This document shows positions 10,563 through 40,628 of a DNA stretch of 40,628 nucleotides, piece by piece. A program made the translations under genes and the position numbers. Below the pieces are notes generated by a model that saw only the letters and a list, made by a program, of their open reading frames with translations, searched no databases and had not been told where the DNA came from. The stretch is from Pseudomonadota bacterium (GTDB taxonomy: Bacteria > Pseudomonadota > Gammaproteobacteria > Steroidobacterales > Steroidobacteraceae), in contig JAJZVF010000005.1 in assembly GCA_021845825.1 (NCBI GenBank), positions 1 through 40,628 of the forward strand, written 5' to 3'. Positions within the stretch are counted from its first letter, which is position 1, and each line of letters opens with the position of its first letter.

Positions 10563-11777
10563 TCAGTCGCTGCGCAGATGCATCGCCCGGCGCACTTCTT
10601 CGAGCGTCGCCCGGGCCGCATCGCGCGCCTTTTCCGAACCCTCGGCGACGATGTCACGCAGCAGCTCGGGGTTCTCGAGGTACTCCTGTGCTCGGCGCCG
10701 CAGCTCGGTGACTTCTGCGACGATTTTCTCGATGAGCGGCTGCTTGCACTCGAGGCAACCGATGCCGGCAGAGCGACAGCCCTCGGCCGCCCATTTGCGC
10801 GTGTCCTCGCCGGAATAGATCTTGTGCAAGTCCCACACCGGACAGCGCTCAGGCTCGCCCGGGTCGGTGCGCCGCCCCCGCGCCGGATCGGTCTTCATGG
10901 CCCGCAGCTTGCGCTCGACCGATTGCGGCTCTTCGCGCATCTCGATGGTATTGCCGTACGATTTGGACATCTTGCGCCCATCGAGCCCCGGGACCTTGGG
11001 CGTCTCGGTGAGCAGCGCCTGGGGCTCGGGCAGGATGGCAATGCCGGTGCCCTCCAGGTACCCGAGCAAGCGGTCGCGGTCGGCCACGGTCAGACGGTTG
11101 TTGCTGTGCACGAGTGCACGACCGCGCTCGAGGGCCTGCTGCTCGCCGGCCTCCTGGAATTTTCGCCGCAGCTGGCGGTAGAGCGTGGTATTGCGCCCGC
11201 CGAGGCTCTTGATCGCTCGCTCGACCTTCTCCTCGAAGTCCGGCTCGCGGCCGTAGAGATGGTTGAAACGGCGTGCGGTCTCGCGTGTGAGCTCCACATG
11301 CGCCACCTGATCATCGCCCACGGGCACATGCTGCGCCCGATAGATCAGGATGTCGGCGCTTTGCAACAGCGGATAGCCCAGGAATCCATACGTTGCCAGG
11401 TCCTTGTCCTTGATCTGCTCCTGCTGGTCCTTATAGCTCGGTACCCGCTCAAGCCATCCAAGCGGGGTGATCATGGACAGCAGCAGGTGCAGCTCGGCAT
11501 GCTCGGGCACGTGCGATTGGACAAACAGCGTCGCCACCCCCGGATTGAGACCCGCCGACAGCCAGTCGATCAGCACCTCGTGCACGAATTCCGGCAACCG
11601 GGAGGGATCCTCGTAGCCGGTGGTGAGCATGTGCCAGTCGGCGATGAAGAAAAAGCACTCGTGCTCGTACTGCAGACGCACCCAGTTGCGAAGCGCCCCG
11701 TGGTAATTGCCCAGGTGCAGCCGGCCCGTGGGCCGCATGCCGGACAGGACGCGGCCGCCGGGGTGAGGTGTGCTCAT
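10563..11777 (-). CDS. trpS: Tryptophanyl-tRNA synthetase with inserted and Cys-rich C-terminal region
   Basis: 404 aa; RVLSGMRPTGRLHLGNYHGAL (class I HIGH region) and GRKMSKSYGN (KMSKS). Contains C-x21-C-x6-C-x2-C. Confidence 0.95.
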   Translation of the reverse strand: MSTPHPGGRVLSGMRPTGRLHLGNYHGALRNWVRLQYEHECFFFIADWHMLTTGYEDPSRLPEFVHEVLIDWLSAGLNPGVATLFVQSHVPEHAELHLLLSMITPLGWLERVPSYKDQQEQIKDKDLATYGFLGYPLLQSADILIYRAQHVPVGDDQVAHVELTRETARRFNHLYGREPDFEEKVERAIKSLGGRNTTLYRQLRRKFQEAGEQQALERGRALVHSNNRLTVADRDRLLGYLEGTGIAILPEPQALLTETPKVPGLDGRKMSKSYGNTIEMREEPQSVERKLRAMKTDPARGRRTDPGEPERCPVWDLHKIYSGEDTRKWAAEGCRSAGIGCLECKQPLIEKIVAEVTELRRRAQEYLENPELLRDIVAEGSEKARDAARATLEEVRRAMHLRSD

Positions 11778-11890
11778 CGAAGCTGTTCTCGCATTCTCAA
11801 ACGCTCAGTATACCGTGTTCGCCCCTTGCCCCCAGCGCAAGCCGCGCCAGCGGCAAGCTGGCTTGCCCTCGATGGGCCGCCAGGAAGCGA

Positions 11891-12541
11891 TCATCCGGGC
11901 CGGTCGCTCGCAGAACGGCTGGCCGTGATGGCAGCCAACGGCCCCCTCCCGGCGCGGATCACGACCGGCGGCGTCACGGACAGATCCACCACCGTGGTCG
12001 GCTCCACCCCGCAATCTCCCCCATCGAGCACTGCATCGATCTCGTTCTCGAGGCGCCGCTGGATCTCTTGCGCCGAGGTGAGCGGAGTCGGCTCATCCGG
12101 CAGCAGCAGAGTGCTGCTCATGAGCGGCTCGCCGAGTTCCTTCAGCAGCAGCCGCGGTACCGGGTGGTCCGGGATGCGCACCCCGATGGTGCGCCGCCGC
12201 TCGTGCTGCAGCCGCCGGGGCGTCTCGCGCGTGGCCTTGAGCAGAAAGGTGTACGGGCCCGGCAGGCAGCTGCGCAGCATGCGAAATTGCCAAGTCTCGA
12301 TCCGGGCAAACCGTCCGACCTCGGCGAGGTCCGCGCAAACCACGGTGAAATGATGGTGCCGGTCCGCCCGGCGGATGCGCCGCACCCGCTCGATCGCCCG
12401 GGCATCGCCCAGGCGCCAGCCGAGCGCATAGCATGAGTCGGTGGGATAGGCGATGATGCCGCCGCCGCGCACGATGTCGACCGCGATGCGGATCAGGCGG
12501 GCCTGTGGCGTGACCGGATGCAGCTTGAGGTAACGGCTCAT
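11891..12541 (-). CDS. YrdC/Sua5/YciO-family protein (L-threonylcarbamoyladenylate synthase-like)
   Basis: 216 aa; VRGGGIIAYPTDSCYALGWRLGD, GPYTFLLKATRETPRRL, TIGVRIPDHP. Looks closer to YciO than TsaC. Confidence 0.85.
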   Translation of the reverse strand: MSRYLKLHPVTPQARLIRIAVDIVRGGGIIAYPTDSCYALGWRLGDARAIERVRRIRRADRHHHFTVVCADLAEVGRFARIETWQFRMLRSCLPGPYTFLLKATRETPRRLQHERRRTIGVRIPDHPVPRLLLKELGEPLMSSTLLLPDEPTPLTSAQEIQRRLENEIDAVLDGGDCGVEPTTVVDLSVTPPVVIRAGRGPLAAITASRSASDRPG

Positions 12542-12618
12542 GTGCTCGTCCGCTCCGGGAGGAGCACGAGTGCGATATCATACGCAACCTTGAACAATAC
12601 CTGTGACCACCGCGGCGG

Positions 12619-12915
12619 ATGAGCGCCACACCGAAAAACACGATCATCGATGAGATGCGCGCCGCTTTGGAACGTGCCTTCTCACCGCTGTCACTCGAGA
12701 TCCTCGACGACAGCGCCCGGCATGCCGGCCACGCGGGAGCCCGATCCGGCGGACACTTTCGCGTCGCGCTGGTTTCGCGCTCATTCGCCGGCCGGCCGGC
12801 GCTCGAGCGGCACCGCATGGTCTACGAGGCGCTCGCGCCGCTGATGGGCCACGGCATCCACGCGCTGAACATCTCGGCCACCGCGCCGCGCAACGCGCCG
12901 CGGCCGGCGCCCTGA
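12619..12915 (+). CDS. bolA: BolA family protein
   Basis: 98 aa; LSLEILDDSARHAGHAGARSGGHFRVALVSRSFAGRPALERHRMVYEALAPLMGHGIHALNI. Confidence 0.9.
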   Translation: MSATPKNTIIDEMRAALERAFSPLSLEILDDSARHAGHAGARSGGHFRVALVSRSFAGRPALERHRMVYEALAPLMGHGIHALNISATAPRNAPRPAP

Positions 12916-12964
12916 CGGCCTGCCGGCCAATTTTTTCGCCCCACCACAACCGAACGAGCCTCTC

Positions 12965-13861
12965 ATGAAGCAACTCAGGATCCTCTGCCTCGTGTGCGCC
13001 CTGGCGACGCTGGCCGCCTGCCATCCCCAGTCCTCCGCGCCGGGCAAACCCTCTACCTCCGTGGTCGCCACGGTCAACGGGACGCCGATCAGCCGCCAGT
13101 TCTACGAGTTCTACATCAAGGGAATCACCGGCGGCCGCGACTCGAGCGCCCTTACACCGCGCCAGCGCGCCATGGTGCTCGACAGCCTGATCCGCGCCGA
13201 AGCCGTGGCGCAACAGGCGACCAGGGAAGGGCTGCAGAAGCAGCCGAGCACCGCCTCGCTCCTCAGGCTCTCCCGGCTGCACATCCTCGAGCAGGCTGCC
13301 TCGGATAAGTTTCTCGCCGGCAAGACGCCGAGCGACGCGCAGCTGCAGGCCGAATACAACGCCGAAGTGGCGCAGATGCCGAAAACCGAGTACCACGCGG
13401 CGCACATCCTGGTCAAGAGCAAGGCGCTCGCCGAAAAGGTTATCCAGGACCTCGGGCGCGGCGGGAACTTCGCCACGCTGGCCAGGAAATACTCCATCGA
13501 CCCCTCCAAGGCCAACGGCGGGGATCTCGGCTGGTTCACGCTCAATCACATGGTCAAACCCTTCTCTGACGCCGTCGCGCAGCTGAAGGTCGGGGAGTAC
13601 ACCCACACGCCGGTGCACACGCAGTACGGCTGGCACGTCATCAAGCTGCTCGGCACCAGACCGCTTACTCCGCCGCCGTTCGACCAGGTCAAGGAGCGCC
13701 TGGTGCAGATCGTCGAGGCCAAGCAGTTCCGTGCCTACACCGACACGCTGATCGGCAAGGACAAGGTCGTGACCTATCTCGACCCCCAGACCGACCAGCT
13801 GACCAAGGGTGAGGCGGGCCCGCCGGCGGTTGCCGCCGCCGCGCCCGCCAACGCCGACTGA
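12965..13861 (+). CDS. Peptidyl-prolyl cis-trans isomerase, parvulin type, predicted lipoprotein
   Basis: 298 aa; lipobox LAAC after a hydrophobic signal, parvulin core EYHAAHILVKSKALAEKVIQDLGRGGNFATLARKYSIDPSKANGGDLGWF. Confidence 0.9.
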   Translation: MKQLRILCLVCALATLAACHPQSSAPGKPSTSVVATVNGTPISRQFYEFYIKGITGGRDSSALTPRQRAMVLDSLIRAEAVAQQATREGLQKQPSTASLLRLSRLHILEQAASDKFLAGKTPSDAQLQAEYNAEVAQMPKTEYHAAHILVKSKALAEKVIQDLGRGGNFATLARKYSIDPSKANGGDLGWFTLNHMVKPFSDAVAQLKVGEYTHTPVHTQYGWHVIKLLGTRPLTPPPFDQVKERLVQIVEAKQFRAYTDTLIGKDKVVTYLDPQTDQLTKGEAGPPAVAAAAPANAD

Positions 13862-13882
13862 TTCGAGACCAGCCCATCGAGC

Positions 13883-17140
<3,258 letters not shown>

Positions 17141-17160
17141 GGCGAGAGCCTCCCGGAGCG

Positions 17161-20100
17161 TTAAACCGCGGCCAGCCGGACCGCCTCATCCACATCCACG
17201 GCCACCAGCCGCGAGACCCCCGCCTCCTGCATGGTCACGCCGAGCAACTGCGCGGCGAGCTCCATGGTGGTCTTGCTGTGGGTAATGAAGATGAACTGCA
17301 CCCGCTGCGACATCTCGCGCACGATGTCGCAGAACCGGCCGATGTTGGCTTCATCGAGCGGCGCATCCACCTCATCGAGCAGGCAGAACGGCGCCGGATT
17401 CAGATCGAAGATCGAGAACACCAGCGCCACGGCGGTGAGCGCCTTCTCCCCGCCCGAGAGCAGATGGATGGTGCTGTTTTTCTTCCCCGGCGGGCGCGCC
17501 ATCACCGCCACGCCGGCATTGAGCACGTCCTCCCCGACCAGCTCGAGATAGGCGTGCCCGCCCCCGAACAGGCGCGGGAATTTCTCTTTCATGCCGGCGT
17601 TGATCTTCTCGAAGGTGTCCTCGAAGCGGCTGCGCGTCTCCTTGTCTATGCGCCGCATCGCCTCCTCGAGCGTGTCGAGCGCCGAAGTCAGATCGGTGAA
17701 TTGCCGGTCGAGGTACTCCTTGCGCTCGGTCTGTTCCGTCAACTCATCGATGGCCGCCAGGTTCACCTGACCGAGCTTGTCGATGCCGGCACGAACCTGC
17801 GTGAGCCTGCCTTCCCAGGCGGACAGTTCGGCATCGGCGGGCAGGCTCTCCTCGACCGACTCGAGCGTAAAGCGCGTCTCGATGAGCTGCTCGAGCAGCC
17901 CCTCGCGCCGGATACGGTTCTCCTGGGCCGCGAGCCGGGCCGCCTCCATTGCCTCGCGTGCGTGCTCGACCCGCTGCTCCGCCTGTGTGCGTTGCTCCTC
18001 GAGAGCCCGCCGGGCCAGGTCGACCTCCTCCAACGCCGCACGCGCCGCGGCAAGATCCGCCTCCACGGTGAGCCGTTGGGAAAGCGTGCTGTCGAGGCGC
18101 GTCTCGAGCTCGACGATTGGGACATCGCCGGCAGAGAGCTCCGTTTCGAGCTCCTCGCGCCGCCGTGCGGCCTGGGCACGCTGCTCGCCCATGCGCGCGA
18201 GACTCAAGCCGATCGAACTCTCCAGCGAGCGCCGAGACTCGACCCGGATCAGCAGGTCGCGGGCCGCGATCTGGGCCGCCTGGGCGCGAGCGCGCGCCCC
18301 CGCGAGCGCTTCCCGGCGCACTTCGCGCTCCGCCTCGAGCACTTCCCGCTGGGCGTTGAGCTCGCCGACCCGCATCGCTCCCTGCTCGCGCGCCTCGCGC
18401 GCCTGGTACAACGCCGCCTGCGCAGCGGCGATCTCCTGCGAGAGCTCCTCACGCTCCGCCTCGAGGCGGCAGCGGCGCTGCATCGTCTGCTCGAGGCGAG
18501 CGCGCGCCGCCTGCAGTCGCCCGGTGAGCTCGGTTTGGTGCCGGTGCGCATCCTGAATCGCAGCCTGCACGCTGTCCCGCTCGACTTCGGCCTGGGAGAG
18601 CGCATCACGCACCTGCACGAGGTGCGCCTCGGCGATGCGCGCTCGATCCTCGGCGGCGTCGGCAGCGGCACGCAGGCTCTTCAGGCGATGCCCGCGCTCG
18701 ATGATGCCGGCATGCGGGTCGACGCCGCGGCTGACGCGCAGCCATTGGCGGCCGAGCCACTCGCCGGCACGGGTGATGACCGACTGTCCCGACTCGAGCG
18801 TGACCCGAATTTGCAGCGCCTCGGCCAGGGAGTCCGCGACGCGCACGCCCGCCAGCTGCGCCAGCGCCGCGGGCGGTCCCGACACCTTGCGGGCCAGGGT
18901 AGCGCCCCCGGCACCGGCGGAGACGGCGCCATCCTCAACCAGCGTGAGCTGCCCCTCGGTGAGCTGCTCGAGCGGCCGGGCAAGCGCATCGAGGCCATCG
19001 ACACACACCGCCTCCAGGTAATCCCCAAGGGCGGTCTCGACCGCGCGCTCCCAGCCGGGCTCGACCGCAAGACGTTCGGCGAGCCGCGGACACCCGGCAA
19101 GGCCGGCGCCGGCAAGCCATTCGAGCGCCTCTCCGGCGCTGGCCGAGAGCGCGGCCCTTTGCACCGCCTCGAGCGAGGTGCATTCGGCCCGCGAGCGCTC
19201 GCGGTCGGCGCGAGCCGTCTCGAGCTCTTTTTCCGCAGCGAGCCGTCCGGCGCGTGCGCCCTGCACGCGCTCGACGGCAAGCCGCAGACTCTCCGCGAGC
19301 GTCTCGCCGGCGGCGCGCGCGGCGCTCTCCTCGCCGGCGAGAAGATCGAGCTGCTCGCCCACGTCCTGAGCGGCGAGCGAGTCGCGCTCGAGGGCAAGCC
19401 GCTCGGTCTGCGCTTCTAGGCGCCGCAGTTGACTCTCGAGCTGCTCGCTGCGCGCCCGCTCGACCTGAGTGGTGCGGTCGGCGTCGCCGAGCGCACCGTT
19501 CAACCGCTCCCAACGCTCCTGCCAGGCGGCAAGCTCTGCCTGGCTCGTCTCGAGCGCCTGCGCCGTCGCCTGCTCGGCCCGCCGGGCGTCCTCGAGCTGC
19601 GGGAGCGCAGCGCTGAGCTCCGCGCGGACGGCGGCAAGCTCGCGCTCGTCGCGCCCGATGTGCGCGGCGAGCTCGGCCAGCGTCGCGCTCGCCTGGGCGA
19701 GATCGGCCCGCTGGCGCTCGCGCAGCTGCCGGGTATGCTGAATCGCCTGCTCGAGGCGGGAGATCTCCGCGCCGATCTCATAATGGCGAGCCTGGACGGC
19801 CGAGAGCCGCTCGGCGCAGGCGGTGTGCTGCGCGCGCCGGCTCTCGATGGCCGCCTCTGCGGCCCGCTGATCGGCGAGCGCCGATTGCATCTGCAGCTCG
19901 CGTTCGCGGGTGGCGCTGTCGTGAACCTCGGCTCCGCTGTCGAGCTCGCGTATGCGCAGCGCCAACAGCTCCGCGCTCACGCGCCGTTCCTCCTCCTTCA
20001 GACCCTGATAGCGCCGTGCGGTCGCCGCCTGGCGCTGCAGGTGGCGGATCTGTTTCTCCACTTCATCGCGCACGTCCTGCAGCCGATCGAGATTCTCGCG

Positions 20101-35723: not shown

Positions 35724-35954
35724 TCAGTTCCCCGGCGGCGCGAAGCTCGGCACAGGCTTCGGCGGCTCCCCGTCCGCCGCCGCGGCCCGCTGCTCCCTTT
35801 TGATTCGCTCGTAGATCTCCTCGCGGTGCACCGCGATGTGTTTCGGCGCGTTGATGCCGATACGGACCTGATTGCCCTTGACGCCGAGCACCGTAATAGT
35901 GACCTCGTCCCCGATCATCACGGTCTCGCCGACCCGCCTTGTAAGTATAAGCAT
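35724..35954 (-). CDS. csrA: Carbon storage regulator CsrA
   Basis: [55 protein letters not shown], with AGAGGAA ribosome-binding site upstream. Confidence 0.96.
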
Positions 35955-36030: not shown

Positions 36031-37065
36031 TCAGGGCATGGTCCGCCCGTCTCCCCGATGCGATCGATAACCCACGATGACCTCCCCGCGCCGTTGCGTG
36101 ACGGTGATGGGCTCGATTGCGGCAATTCGCTCGAGCGTGGCGTCGACGTTGCGAACGCTGAACGCTCCGCCGATCCTCATGCGCGCGGCGCGTGGATCGG
36201 CGATGACGATGCGCTGGGAAGTGTAGCGGCTCAGATCGCCGATGAATTGCGATAGCCGCTCGCCCCGGGTCTCGATGATGCCCTCGCGCCAGCGAATGGC
36301 ACTCCGTGCCCGCACGGAGTGCACATCGGCCACCAAGCCGACCGCGGAGTACTCGATCTGCTCATTGCCGGTCAGTCGACGGCTCCAGGACGGCCGTGCG
36401 GCCGGCCCGTTGCCCAGCCCCTCGACCGACACCCTGCCGCTCACCACGGTGACGACGACATTGCCGTCGGCCTTTTGGTAGACGTCGAACCGCGTACCGA
36501 GCACTTGCACCTCGCTGTGCGCAAGCAGGATACGGAATGGGCGCCGGCGCTCGTGCACCACCTCGAAGTACGCCTCGCCGCTGAGCAGCCGAACCCGCCG
36601 ATTCTCGGGACTACCTACCCATTCCAGCCGCGTATGCGTATTGAGGTAGGCGACGCTGCCGTCAGGCAGCACGAAACTGCGCATCTGCCCGACCCGGGTC
36701 CGATACGTTCGAGGCAGATAGCCCCGATCGCTCAACCACAGCCACCCGACCGTCAGGGCGGCACACACGGCGATCACTGTCACCGCCGAGAGCCACCCCG
36801 CTCCCGGCCGCCCGCGCTCGCACGCGGCTCGCTCGGCTATGCTCTGCAGTACCTCGGCCTTCGCGGGTCCCGACAGGTCGGCCGCGACATCGCATACGGT
36901 CCGCAGCTCGCGGAATTCGCGTGCCTGCAGAGGCTCGGCGAGCCAAGCGGTGAAGGCGCGCTGGCACTGCGGGGCCAAGGGCTCGTCCATGATAGTCAGC
37001 CACGCTGCCGCCTGCGCACGCGCACGACGGCGCCGCCACCTGCAAAGGAATCCGCGAGACCTCAA
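36031..37065 (-). CDS. FecR-family anti-sigma factor
   Basis: 344 aa; N-terminal [36 protein letters not shown], FecR core [26 protein letters not shown]...[44 protein letters not shown]-terminal STN-like segment. Apparent TTG start overlapping the fecI-like stop (TTGA). Confidence 0.9.
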
Positions 37066-37631
37066 TCCACCTCCGCCAAATCAATACCTTGGGACGATAA
37101 CTTCACACGACACTGCTTCAGCGCCCGGGTCATGCGCTTATCGACCCTCTTCTCCGAGATGCCGAGCCGCCCGGCGATCTCCTTGCGCGATTTGCCCTGC
37201 ACATGCGCCATGACGAACACCTCACGCAGTGCCGGGCGCAGACCCTTGATGACCTGCACGAGGTGGCCTGTGATCTGATCGGCGAGGACTCTGCGCTCCG
37301 GATCCAGGTCGTGGTCGGGGATCTCCTCCATGCCCGCAGAACCTGCGAACAGCTCACTCTCCAACCGGCGCCGACGCAGACGCATGAGAGCAAAATTGGT
37401 CGCGATCTTGAACAGCATCGCGCGCGGAAATTGCAGCTGCTCCGGGCGATACATCCGCTGCAGCTTTTCATAGGCATCCTGCGCCACCTCACGGGCCAGA
37501 TCCGCTCTGCCGAGAATCTGGGTGAGGTACGCAAGCAGCTGCGCCTCGTGGTTCCGGCACAGCCTCGCGAAAAACTCGTTACCCCCCCCTGTTCCGGGAA
37601 AACGTCTCACTTCGCCCAAAGTCTTGTCCAT
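37062..37631 (-). CDS. ECF (FecI-like) RNA polymerase sigma factor
   Basis: 189 aa; region 2 AREVAQDAYEKLQRM...FPRAMLFKIATNFALMRLRRRR, region 4 GLRPALREVFVMAHVQGKSRKEIAGRLGISEKRVDKRMTRALKQCR. Confidence 0.92.
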   Translation of the reverse strand: MDKTLGEVRRFPGTGGGNEFFARLCRNHEAQLLAYLTQILGRADLAREVAQDAYEKLQRMYRPEQLQFPRAMLFKIATNFALMRLRRRRLESELFAGSAGMEEIPDHDLDPERRVLADQITGHLVQVIKGLRPALREVFVMAHVQGKSRKEIAGRLGISEKRVDKRMTRALKQCRVKLSSQGIDLAEVD

Positions 37632-37803
37632 TCCCTAATTCCCTATGTGCCTAGATGCCGAAGTGGCGTCCATCCCCCACCTCGGCAAGAAATTTTGCGG
37701 TCTGCGCCGCCTGCGTTAAGCTGGAATTGAACATAATGTTGCTGAACCTAGCGCATGCTTAGAAGTAATGAGTGTGGCGCACAACGGTTGGAGATACAGA
37801 GCC

Positions 37804-37971
37804 ATGAATAGTCCCAAGAGTGACGACCGGAAGCCGCCTAGTGAGACGGAGCGCGTGGAGCAGACGGCTTCGGATGAGGAAGCGGGGAGCCTGACGGAAC
37901 TCGGCAAGGTATCCGGCACCGAGGGGGGCATCGTCGGCTATAAAGTCGACAGTGGTCTTGGCTGGCATTAA
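37804..37971 (+). CDS. Candidate lasso-peptide precursor (40-aa leader + 15-aa core GGIVGYKVDSGLGWH)
   Basis: 55 aa MNSPKSDDRKPPSETERVEQTASDEEAGSLTELGKVSGTEGGIVGYKVDSGLGWH; GGAG Shine-Dalgarno-like site 10 nt upstream of the ATG. LTELGKVS...T-x-G leader end, Thr at -2, Gly1, only one acidic core residue (Asp9). Flanked by ECF sigma/FecR and a TonB receptor. Confidence 0.7.
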   Translation: MNSPKSDDRKPPSETERVEQTASDEEAGSLTELGKVSGTEGGIVGYKVDSGLGWH

Positions 37972-38168: not shown

Positions 38169-40628
38169 TTACCACTGCTCGCTGAGATTCACGCTGAGCA
38201 CGCGTCCGAGAGCCTGGAAATTGGCGATGTCGTAGCCAAATTGGCTGTCGACGAAAGGAGGTGCGCGGTTCAGAATGTTTACGACATTCAGCGACAGGTC
38301 CGTACTGCCTGACTCGAGCACACCGGCCATCCGGTACGCCACCCGAGCATCCACGGTGGTCCAGGCCGATACGCTCGGCAGCTTGGTGCTGCTGGGATCG
38401 CGGTACGCACCCATGTAGTTGAGCGCCAGATGGAGCGACCACCCCGGGCGACCGGGGCCGCGGCGGCTCCAGCCGGCCGTACCCCGCAATCGCAGCGCCA
38501 AGGGGTTGGCCACGGTGTTCAGGATGCTGACGGGCGGGGAAGCGGGGGTCACCGACTGCAGGAAGCGGAACACGTAGTTGCCCGCAAGCCCCAACGTGAA
38601 ATGACCCCGGCGCCGGCTGTCGAAACGCTCGCGGGCTTCCAGGTCGAGCCCGCTCGTGCGGGTGGCGGCGAGATTGGCGAGGCGCAGATCGACGATGGCC
38701 GCCGGCCGGCTCGTCAGACAGCTCGAGGTCGAGCCGACGAACACGGGACTTTCGCACACCGCCGCGATCTGTGCCTGGGTGGGATCGAATGTGATCACCG
38801 GCGCCCACTCGCTCGCGTGCGCGAGGATACCGAGAGGATCGTCGGCGGCAGGCTGTTCGATGCGGTTGAAGTAATCGATGGCATAGTAGGTCAAGGACAC
38901 CTCCGCGCCTCGCCCGGGCGCCATATCAAGCCCCACGGTCCAGGTCCGGGCGGTCTCCTGGCGCAGGTCCGGGTTGGCGCCCTGCTCACCCAGTACGAGG
39001 GATCGGCCCGTTGGAGAGTTGGGGTCGGCCAGCACCGTCATGAAAGCGATGTTTTGTGAGGTGTCGTAGAGATCATCGAGCTTGGGCGCGCGGAACGAGC
39101 GGCCCCAGCTACCGCGCAGCTTCAGCCAGTGCGCCGCGGTCCACCGCAGGCGCGCGGTGGGATTGAAGGTGCCGCCGAAATCGCTGTAGTGATCGTACCG
39201 GCCCGCGAGGCCCAGCGTCAGCCGCGGAGTCGCGCGCCGGTTGTGCGCATCGCCGACCAGCGGCACATCCAACTGGGAGAACACCGACCAGACGTGACGG
39301 CCGTACCGCTCGGCGGTGAGCAACCCCTGTGGATCCGGCACGTCTTCGTGCAGTGTCTCACTCCTGCGCTGCACGCCCACGGCGAGCTTGGCCTCGCCCG
39401 CCGGCAAGCGCACGAGGGGCCCATCCGCGACGAGCTCGGTCTGCTCGATGCCATCGCTCGAATGCAGCCGGTAATCACGGCGGATGATGGCCAGGGTGGC
39501 CGGGCTGGTGAACGAGCCGTCACCGAAGGGATCGAACGCGGTGGCTGGATTGGGGTCGGCCAGGGCAGCCGCAAGTTGCGCCGGATCCGGCACGTTATAT
39601 TCATCGTCCAGCAGGGATTGGTCGCCGTCGGACTCGCTGAGCGTGGCCTGCCAGCCGGCGCCCAGCCGGGCGGTGCCGCCGAGCGTGCCCATGTACAGGC
39701 GCGAGCGCGAAGCAAGCCGGGTCGGACCGAAGTCGCTTTGGAAGCTGTAGGCGACCAGCGTGTACGGTGCGCCCGCATAGGGATTGACGTAGAAGGGGTT
39801 GGAGGCGGGGACCGTCAGCACCTGCTGGTCCGGCAGAGTGCTCAGCTGCGTTGCCCGCCGCGTGTACCGGGCCTGCACGAACAGCTTCAGTCCGCGGAGC
39901 AGGTCCTCGGAGGCCGCGGCATAGAATTCATGCGCGGTGCGCTCGGGAAAGATCTGGAATTGAGCGAAGGGGTTCTGCAGGTTGATGCTCGAGGTGAGCT
40001 CGCCCACACTCAGCGCCTTGCCGTCCTGATCGGCGGGGATGCCGTAGGCCGGTTGCAAGGTCAGAGGATCGAGAATGTTTCCGGGGTCGCTGTAATAGCT
40101 GTCGTAATTGGTGCCGCCGTAAGGAACCTTGTCGGCGTTCGCCGCATACGGCCGGTCGGCTGCCGTGAGCGGCGTAGCGTCGGAATACTCGTAAGCCAAC
40201 ATCGCATGCCCGCCCGGCCAGTCGGTGCCGAGCAGCTGCGAGACCATCGTCTCGGCGCGCCCACCCGGCGCCGTGGTGTACCTGAGGTCCGTTTCGGCGC
40301 CTTTGAACCGATTGCGCATGATGATATTGACAACGCCGGCGATCGCGTCCGAGCCGTACAATGCCGAGGCGCCATCGGGCAACACCTCGATGCGCTTGAC
40401 GGCGCTCCACGGGATGGTGGATACGTCGACAAAATCGCCCGTCAATCCTCCGAGCGGCTGACGATACCCGTTCACCAGTACCAGCGTGGCCCCCACCCCG
40501 AGGCCGCGCAGGTTGATGCCGGCCCCATACTGGTAGTTGTCATCGACACCCAGGTCCTCCCGCGGACCGTCCATCGACACCAACGGCAGCTCGTACAGGG
40601 CGTCCTGCACCGTGGCGTAAGCCGCCCC
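38169..40628 (-). CDS. TonB-dependent outer-membrane receptor, N-terminus beyond window end
   Basis: Plug INLRGLGVGATLVLVNGYRQPLGGLTGDFVDVSTIPWSAVKRIEVLPDGASALYGSDAIAGVVNIIMR, beta-barrel to the C-terminal ALGRVLSVNLSEQW; open to the right edge. Confidence 0.93.
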   Translation of the reverse strand, partial: GAAYATVQDALYELPLVSMDGPREDLGVDDNYQYGAGINLRGLGVGATLVLVNGYRQPLGGLTGDFVDVSTIPWSAVKRIEVLPDGASALYGSDAIAGVVNIIMRNRFKGAETDLRYTTAPGGRAETMVSQLLGTDWPGGHAMLAYEYSDATPLTAADRPYAANADKVPYGGTNYDSYYSDPGNILDPLTLQPAYGIPADQDGKALSVGELTSSINLQNPFAQFQIFPERTAHEFYAAASEDLLRGLKLFVQARYTRRATQLSTLPDQQVLTVPASNPFYVNPYAGAPYTLVAYSFQSDFGPTRLASRSRLYMGTLGGTARLGAGWQATLSESDGDQSLLDDEYNVPDPAQLAAALADPNPATAFDPFGDGSFTSPATLAIIRRDYRLHSSDGIEQTELVADGPLVRLPAGEAKLAVGVQRRSETLHEDVPDPQGLLTAERYGRHVWSVFSQLDVPLVGDAHNRRATPRLTLGLAGRYDHYSDFGGTFNPTARLRWTAAHWLKLRGSWGRSFRAPKLDDLYDTSQNIAFMTVLADPNSPTGRSLVLGEQGANPDLRQETARTWTVGLDMAPGRGAEVSLTYYAIDYFNRIEQPAADDPLGILAHASEWAPVITFDPTQAQIAAVCESPVFVGSTSSCLTSRPAAIVDLRLANLAATRTSGLDLEARERFDSRRRGHFTLGLAGNYVFRFLQSVTPASPPVSILNTVANPLALRLRGTAGWSRRGPGRPGWSLHLALNYMGAYRDPSSTKLPSVSAWTTVDARVAYRMAGVLESGSTDLSLNVVNILNRAPPFVDSQFGYDIANFQALGRVLSVNLSEQW

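Follow-up and report, generated by a model that had tools for sequence, protein, structure and literature searches.

A lasso-peptide precursor gene beside a TonB-dependent receptor system that may have outlived lasso production in several members of one bacterial genus

A lasso locus with an unusual gene order

Isopeptidase-type lasso-peptide clusters carry a TonB-dependent receptor (TBDT) and a sigma/anti-sigma pair, and a siderophore-like role has been proposed for them (PMC9266682). The isopeptidase-class lasso peptides known so far, with the exception of astexin-1, lack antimicrobial activity (reviewed in PMC9266682). The locus described here (type 1) resembles the astexin/benenodin/sphingopyxin-type systems in its precursor (Thr-2, Gly1 and an acidic ring residue), in its B and C proteins and in its TBDT with a sigma/anti-sigma pair (PMC9266682), here FecI/FecR. 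Unlike them, it has no recognised isopeptidase: a partner of this kind was sought with NF033523 and rejected, as the model had no match at the type-1 locus and none above cut-off in 58 genomes of the genus. Gene order differs as well. Astexin-type clusters place lasA upstream of B and C with a divergent isopeptidase-TBDT pair, whereas here lasB, lasC and the TBDT gene follow one another and lasA lies antisense between the TBDT gene and fecI.

Other described systems show similar partial likeness. The rubrinodin cluster is likewise linked to a TBDT and FecI/FecR (PMC9266682) but has both an ABC transporter and an isopeptidase, whereas the type-1 locus lacks an isopeptidase and has an ABC exporter-like gene only in some clades. 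Metanodin, from a soil metagenome (Steroidobacterales), comes from the same order or family and its precursor was also missed by automatic annotation, but it has Asn1 and an isopeptidase instead of Gly1 and none (PMC12670498). In the sphingocin cluster of Sphingomonas BPH, lasso genes also sit beside a TBDT with a proposed siderophore-like role, but an isopeptidase is present, the precursor lies in the B-C operon and the core is unrelated (PMC11006600). Microcin J25-type systems share the class-defining A, B, C logic; unlike them, the clade studied here has a TBDT and FecI/FecR and no dedicated immunity exporter beside the cluster.

The window, that is, the whole 40,628-nucleotide stretch analysed, is the complete contig C40 of a 255-contig MAG (90.5% complete), and its right end cuts the TBDT gene. 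The relevant features are:

35724..35954, minus strand: csrA, an anchor neighbour outside the lasso system (genus-wide synteny)
36031..36990, minus strand: fecR-like anti-sigma factor (81% identity to the G003 orthologue, which itself matches PF04773)
37062..37631, minus strand: fecI-like ECF sigma factor, divergent from lasA (NCBIfam sigma70-ECF above cut-off, Pfam Sigma70_r4_2, synteny)
37727..37737, no strand assigned: TTGAACATAAT box between fecI and lasA, conserved in many relatives
37804..37971, plus strand: lasA, lasso precursor with a 40-aa leader and a 15-aa core GGIVGYKVDSGLGWH (Gly1, Asp9), from translation, homologues and alignments
38169..40628, minus strand: 3′ part of the TBDT gene, running off the window (PF07715 and PF00593 in the window copy)

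C40 ends with the same 127 bases with which contig C124 begins. A de Bruijn assembler run at k = 127 would leave a perfect overlap of just this length at a branch, which suggests that the two contigs are adjacent. When joined, they encode an uninterrupted TBDT of 999 residues plus stop with an N-terminal STN-like region (PF07660 matches weakly in the G003 orthologue), and the remains of the lasso processing genes lie on C124, just beyond the window's end. In intact relatives (G003, G045, G014, G021, G049, G041 and others), csrA-fecR-fecI is followed by an oppositely oriented lasA and, beyond it, by TBDT, lasC and lasB. In the window's clade lasB, lasC and the TBDT gene share one strand with gaps of 5–20 bp, in operon-like fashion. 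Because the TTGAACATAAT box persists where lasA has been lost, it is more likely a fecI promoter or operator than an element of lasA alone, and its candidacy as the lasA promoter is weakened.

The same antisense order occurs in another genus of the family (G217, locus L133), the sole such case among taxa with a related LasC; in the others, the candidate precursor is usually encoded upstream of lasB or next to the B-C genes on the same strand. One clade within the genus (G055, G031, G034 and G035) is split: lasB-lasC-fecI-fecR lie at csrA, while lasA and the TBDT gene lie together elsewhere (in G031, on contigs of 62 kb and 280 kb), and no lasA-like ORF was found near lasC in this clade. The pairing of precursor and receptor at a site apart from the other genes suggests that the two are functionally linked. 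The split loci (L040, L083, L038 and L042/L043 versus L092, L084, L093 and L091) amount to a lasso system in trans that could escape cluster finders.

Lasso precursor and processing proteins in intact relatives

The 55-aa ORF at 37804–37971 (+) translates to MNSPKSDDRKPPSETERVEQTASDEEAGSLTELGKVSGTEGGIVGYKVDSGLGWH*. A GGAG lies upstream of its start; an alternative in-frame start exists at 37768, and homologues share the start at 37804 (MN[ST]P...). We searched with the 55-aa protein across 100 relatives, and all 26 matching genomes belong to one genus of Gammaproteobacteria, in which about 25/57 genomes carry a homologue that agrees in start, length, leader motif and core (best E 5e-22 with the single query, 3.5e-26 with a profile). 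Its position within the locus is also conserved among relatives. In a profile search of 397 genomes from 72 genera of the order, lasA was found only in this genus and one other genus of the same family. Thr-2, Gly1 and Gly5 are invariant in 20/20 aligned copies, Asp9 is present in 19/20, and Gly2 and Lys7 are nearly invariant. The rough consensus of these copies is L-x-x-L-G-x-[VI]-[ST]-x-T-[QE], the cleavage point, then G-G-[ILW]-x-G-x-K-x-D-[ST]-[GA]-x-G-[WF] followed mostly by Q-[YF]-aromatic. The exception at position 9 is G048 (Asp to Gly), whose lasB and lasC are broken too. Comparison with two relatives gave lasA dN/dS of 0.33 and 0.52, from a small sample of 55 codons. No Pfam or NCBIfam family model matched the precursor; short precursors often escape family models.

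The family thus has the hallmarks of class II lasso precursors (Thr-2, Gly1 and Asp/Glu at positions 7–9), and conservation in about 25 genomes rules out a chance or non-coding ORF. Judged by these motifs and their conservation, the ORF is a genuine lasso-peptide precursor gene, conserved across one genus. This bears out the earlier note, which had read the ORF as a lasso precursor with Thr-2, Gly1 and a ring-closing Asp9 and had proposed homologues as a check on these residues; in relatives, lasA is accompanied by a genuine lasso B protein and cyclase. The leader is indeed acidic, as had been remarked, with 10 acidic and 5 basic residues.

LasB of intact relatives combines an RRE (B1) with a transglutaminase-like peptidase (B2). 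It matches NF033537 lasso_biosyn_B2 at 74.8 bits (cut-off 33) as well as PF13471, and C198, H230 and D242 are conserved as the Cys-His-Asp of B2. A profile of the N-terminal part matches TfuB1 (6jx3), a lasso RRE solved with its leader, by sequence (E 7e-4). Foldseek with the predicted structure (pLDDT 89) placed the lasso B1 structures TbiB1/TfuB1 at the top of its list with probabilities of 0.90–0.96, at E-values of only 0.05–0.2. LasC of relatives matches PF00733 at 81.8 bits and has the P-loop SGGLDS, a form of the cyclase motif SGGxDS. It scores 60 bits against the curated NCBIfam cyclase model NF033535, far below the cut-off of 525, which points to a divergent cyclase; its profile had no match among PDB sequences. 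Type-1 LasC forms a single clade that tracks the species tree, suggesting vertical inheritance.

Several side observations concern these and nearby genes. LasC of G025, G022 and G019 (L036, L037 and L080) shares a common TGA a few codons before the usual end, a tolerated C-terminal shortening. An aminotransferase-like gene beside lasB is degenerating both in the window's genome and in that of G045 (L026:2054-2293; L028:15911-16256) and is intact at L027:2413-3591. A type-2 lasso cluster, its lasC showing about 30% identity, sits a few kb away from type 1 at L077, L078, L079, L080, L081, L086, L099 and L108. The L078 copy has a precursor at 10627–10734 (+), ...LGNVSTQTK followed by the core GTPGSALEQGVIVGFDPR (a Gly1–Glu8 candidate), and a 750-aa isopeptidase-like ORF with its own TBDT (10811–18923); the type-2 cluster of G022 likewise has its own TBDT, an isopeptidase-like ORF and a precursor. 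The presence of type-2 clusters with isopeptidase-like ORFs near type 1 suggests that both kinds coexist. G010 has five lasC homologues (L102, L103, L104), several with FecR/TBDT neighbours. Finally, L144 (titled Nostoc sp. CHAB 5836) and L146 (Paucibacter) have near-identical precursors and similar lasC genes, and the Nostoc assembly is probably contaminated.

Broken lasB-lasC and a truncated core in the window's genome

On C124, a single 363-aa ORF joins LasB residues 1 to ~122 to LasC residues ~276–372 and ~441–608, with two in-frame deletions of about 1.24 kb and 0.21 kb. The fusion has neither the Cys-His-Asp residues of B2 nor the P-loop and N-terminal domain of the LasC cyclase. An 11-bp direct repeat, GCGCGCGCCGC, lies at the first and larger breakpoint and is found at both ends in the sister species; a GC-rich partial repeat marks the second. 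A second lasso B or C acting in trans was sought and rejected: PF13471 had no match in the MAG, and PF00733 and LasC searches found only the C124 fusion and weak, unrelated N-terminal matches.

The precursor carries a lesion of its own. Close relatives have a 17-residue core ending W-Q-Y-Y, and the window's core has 15 residues ending W-H. In the DNA alignment, CAG-TAC-TAC of relatives corresponds to CAT-TAA in the window (Gln15His, Tyr16stop), so the short W-H tail is a truncation, a nonsense allele of the ...GWQYY core.

One alternative is that the organism is a producer after all, its deletions being an assembly artefact or the state of one strain in a mixed population, and that the 15-residue W-H core is matured. 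The source is a draft MAG (90.5% complete, 255 contigs) whose contig breaks off at a k-mer branch point. Neither deletion shifts the reading frame, and dN/dS of the LasC remnant pieces is low (0.16–0.21). Yet a recent loss would leave dN/dS low as well, the lesion is internal to C124 and not at a contig end, and collapse of an 11-bp repeat, far shorter than the 127-bp contig overlap, is unlikely in assembly. Furthermore, Y16stop is a second, independent lesion on a different contig, and the assembly holds no intact B2 or cyclase sequence elsewhere. We therefore consider a producing organism unlikely. Instead, its genome has probably lost lasso production recently, leaving a truncated precursor beside an intact TBDT and FecI/FecR; what doubt there is lies with the assembly itself.

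The truncated W-H peptide is thus probably not matured in this organism, unless the MAG assembly is wrong. The earlier note's inference of a novel lasso peptide ending in Trp-His is not supported, given the two in-frame deletions, the lack of another lasB/lasC copy in the MAG and the nonsense allele. The note had held that a genome with no lasso cyclase or B1/B2 would refute its reading. The lasso locus does exist, just off the window on C124, but with B2 and the cyclase P-loop deleted, so that as far as the 90.5%-complete draft shows the genome has neither in working form.

Repeated loss across the genus and the retained receptor

Comparable decay occurs elsewhere in the genus. In G029, G048 and G008, lasB and lasC are in pieces, with frameshifts and large deletions. 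G056 and G004 share a 1-bp deletion in the lasA Gly2 codon and retain fragments of lasC, the only proven case of a common inactivating lesion. G006 and G036 have lost lasA, and lasC/lasB are gone or not found beside the receptor; the same is true of G013, an incomplete genome left out of the tree. On a species tree built from SdaA, DGC and CsrA, non-producers occupy separate positions, implying at least four lasB/lasC losses, the window included. All named genomes of the genus are MAGs, with deletions read from assemblies, and G008, G036, G028, G023 and G037 are interrupted by contig ends or runs of N.

The receptor side shows the opposite pattern. Wherever contiguous, the TBDT gene is open, without internal stops, as are FecI and FecR, and no genome of the genus pairs a damaged receptor with intact lasBC. 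G019 and G039 yielded no receptor, possibly due to contig ends, and an apparent receptor deletion in G036 was rejected, the gap being a run of N. The TBDT of G056 and G004 differs by 79 nonsynonymous and 96 synonymous changes (74% nonsynonymous expected; P = 5e-16), and that of G029 and G048 by 89 and 107 (74% expected; P = 1.5e-17), binomial values that ignore alignment and mutation-bias effects. FecI and FecR of both pairs show a similar nonsynonymous deficit. TBDT dN/dS is 0.27 in the non-producer pairs and 0.13–0.22 in intact pairs, suggesting constraint that is slightly relaxed but clear. Conversely, the lasB/lasC remnants diverge by 12–14% (G029-G048) and 11% (G056-G004), values near the synonymous rate of TBDT (pS 0.155 and 0.127), as expected of near-neutral sequence. 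TBDT, FecI and FecR are thus under purifying selection in two non-producer pairs while lasB/lasC remnants drift. Because the lesions of G029, G048 and G008 differ, part of the divergence among these three may predate loss.

Together, one-sided decay and a selected receptor suggest that the receptor is useful without own production. Our preferred reading, to which we assign a probability of about 0.72 on comparative sequence evidence, is that lasA belongs to a vertically inherited lasso cluster whose production was lost in the window's genome while the receptor and its regulators were kept, and that one-sided decay of this kind occurred at least three more times.

By analogy with the known lasso pathway, the RRE domain of LasB in producers would bind the leader and its transglutaminase-like domain would cut after Thr-X; LasC would adenylate Asp9 and close a Gly1–Asp9 ring around a tail ending W-Q-Y-Y, held by W/Y plugs. 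Gene linkage and FecA-like anatomy suggest that the adjacent TBDT probably recognises the peptide and signals through FecR to FecI. Receiver strains would most likely take up or sense the lasso peptide of neighbours, or another ligand. It is plausible, though somewhat short of an even chance, that TBDT-FecR-FecI is a dedicated lasso uptake or sensing system and that non-producers exploit or eavesdrop on their neighbours' peptide, a public good or signal much like a siderophore.

Another possibility, on balance doubtful, is that TBDT-FecR-FecI serves an unrelated nutrient or metallophore, with the lasso genes mere neighbours whose loss says nothing of lasso function. TBDTs with STN domains and FecI/FecR are generally known to regulate nutrient uptake, purifying selection acts on the receptor where lasBC is missing, and the TTGAACATAAT box survives loss of lasA. 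Such a role fits poorly with the operon-like arrangement of lasB-lasC-TBDT in the window's clade, with the pairing of lasA and TBDT at a separate locus in the split clade and with the same gene order in G217. It is very unlikely that the peptide is a narrow-spectrum antimicrobial entering through the TBDT, with TBDT/FecIR as immunity or cannibalism machinery. Several antimicrobial lasso peptides are generally known to enter through TBDTs (titles given in PMC13352647 name cloacaenodin and ubonodin), but non-producers keep the receptor intact, the opposite of what is expected for a toxin's entry route. Moreover, clusters of the window's clade lack an adjacent ABC exporter of the type seen in relatives, the usual self-immunity gene: G003 and G045 have no ABC gene beside lasB, whereas in other clades lasB has an ABC exporter-like neighbour (e.g., L078).

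An antisense or distant precursor without an isopeptidase is a new arrangement within TBDT/FecIR-linked lasso clusters. Cluster finders that expect A, B and C in a row may overlook a precursor encoded antisense at a distance of about 3 kb from lasC or, as in one clade, at a separate locus. To specialists, the peptide itself is of less value than the pattern of decay from producer to receiver and the gene order, whether antisense or split. A search of mostly non-subscription literature for lasso public goods or non-producers found nothing on this point. The genus supplies matched producer and receiver-only sister species in which the natural role of TBDT/FecIR-linked lasso peptides can be tested. 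That selection has preserved the receptor where production was lost time and again argues, on evolutionary grounds, that having the receptor is an advantage in its own right.
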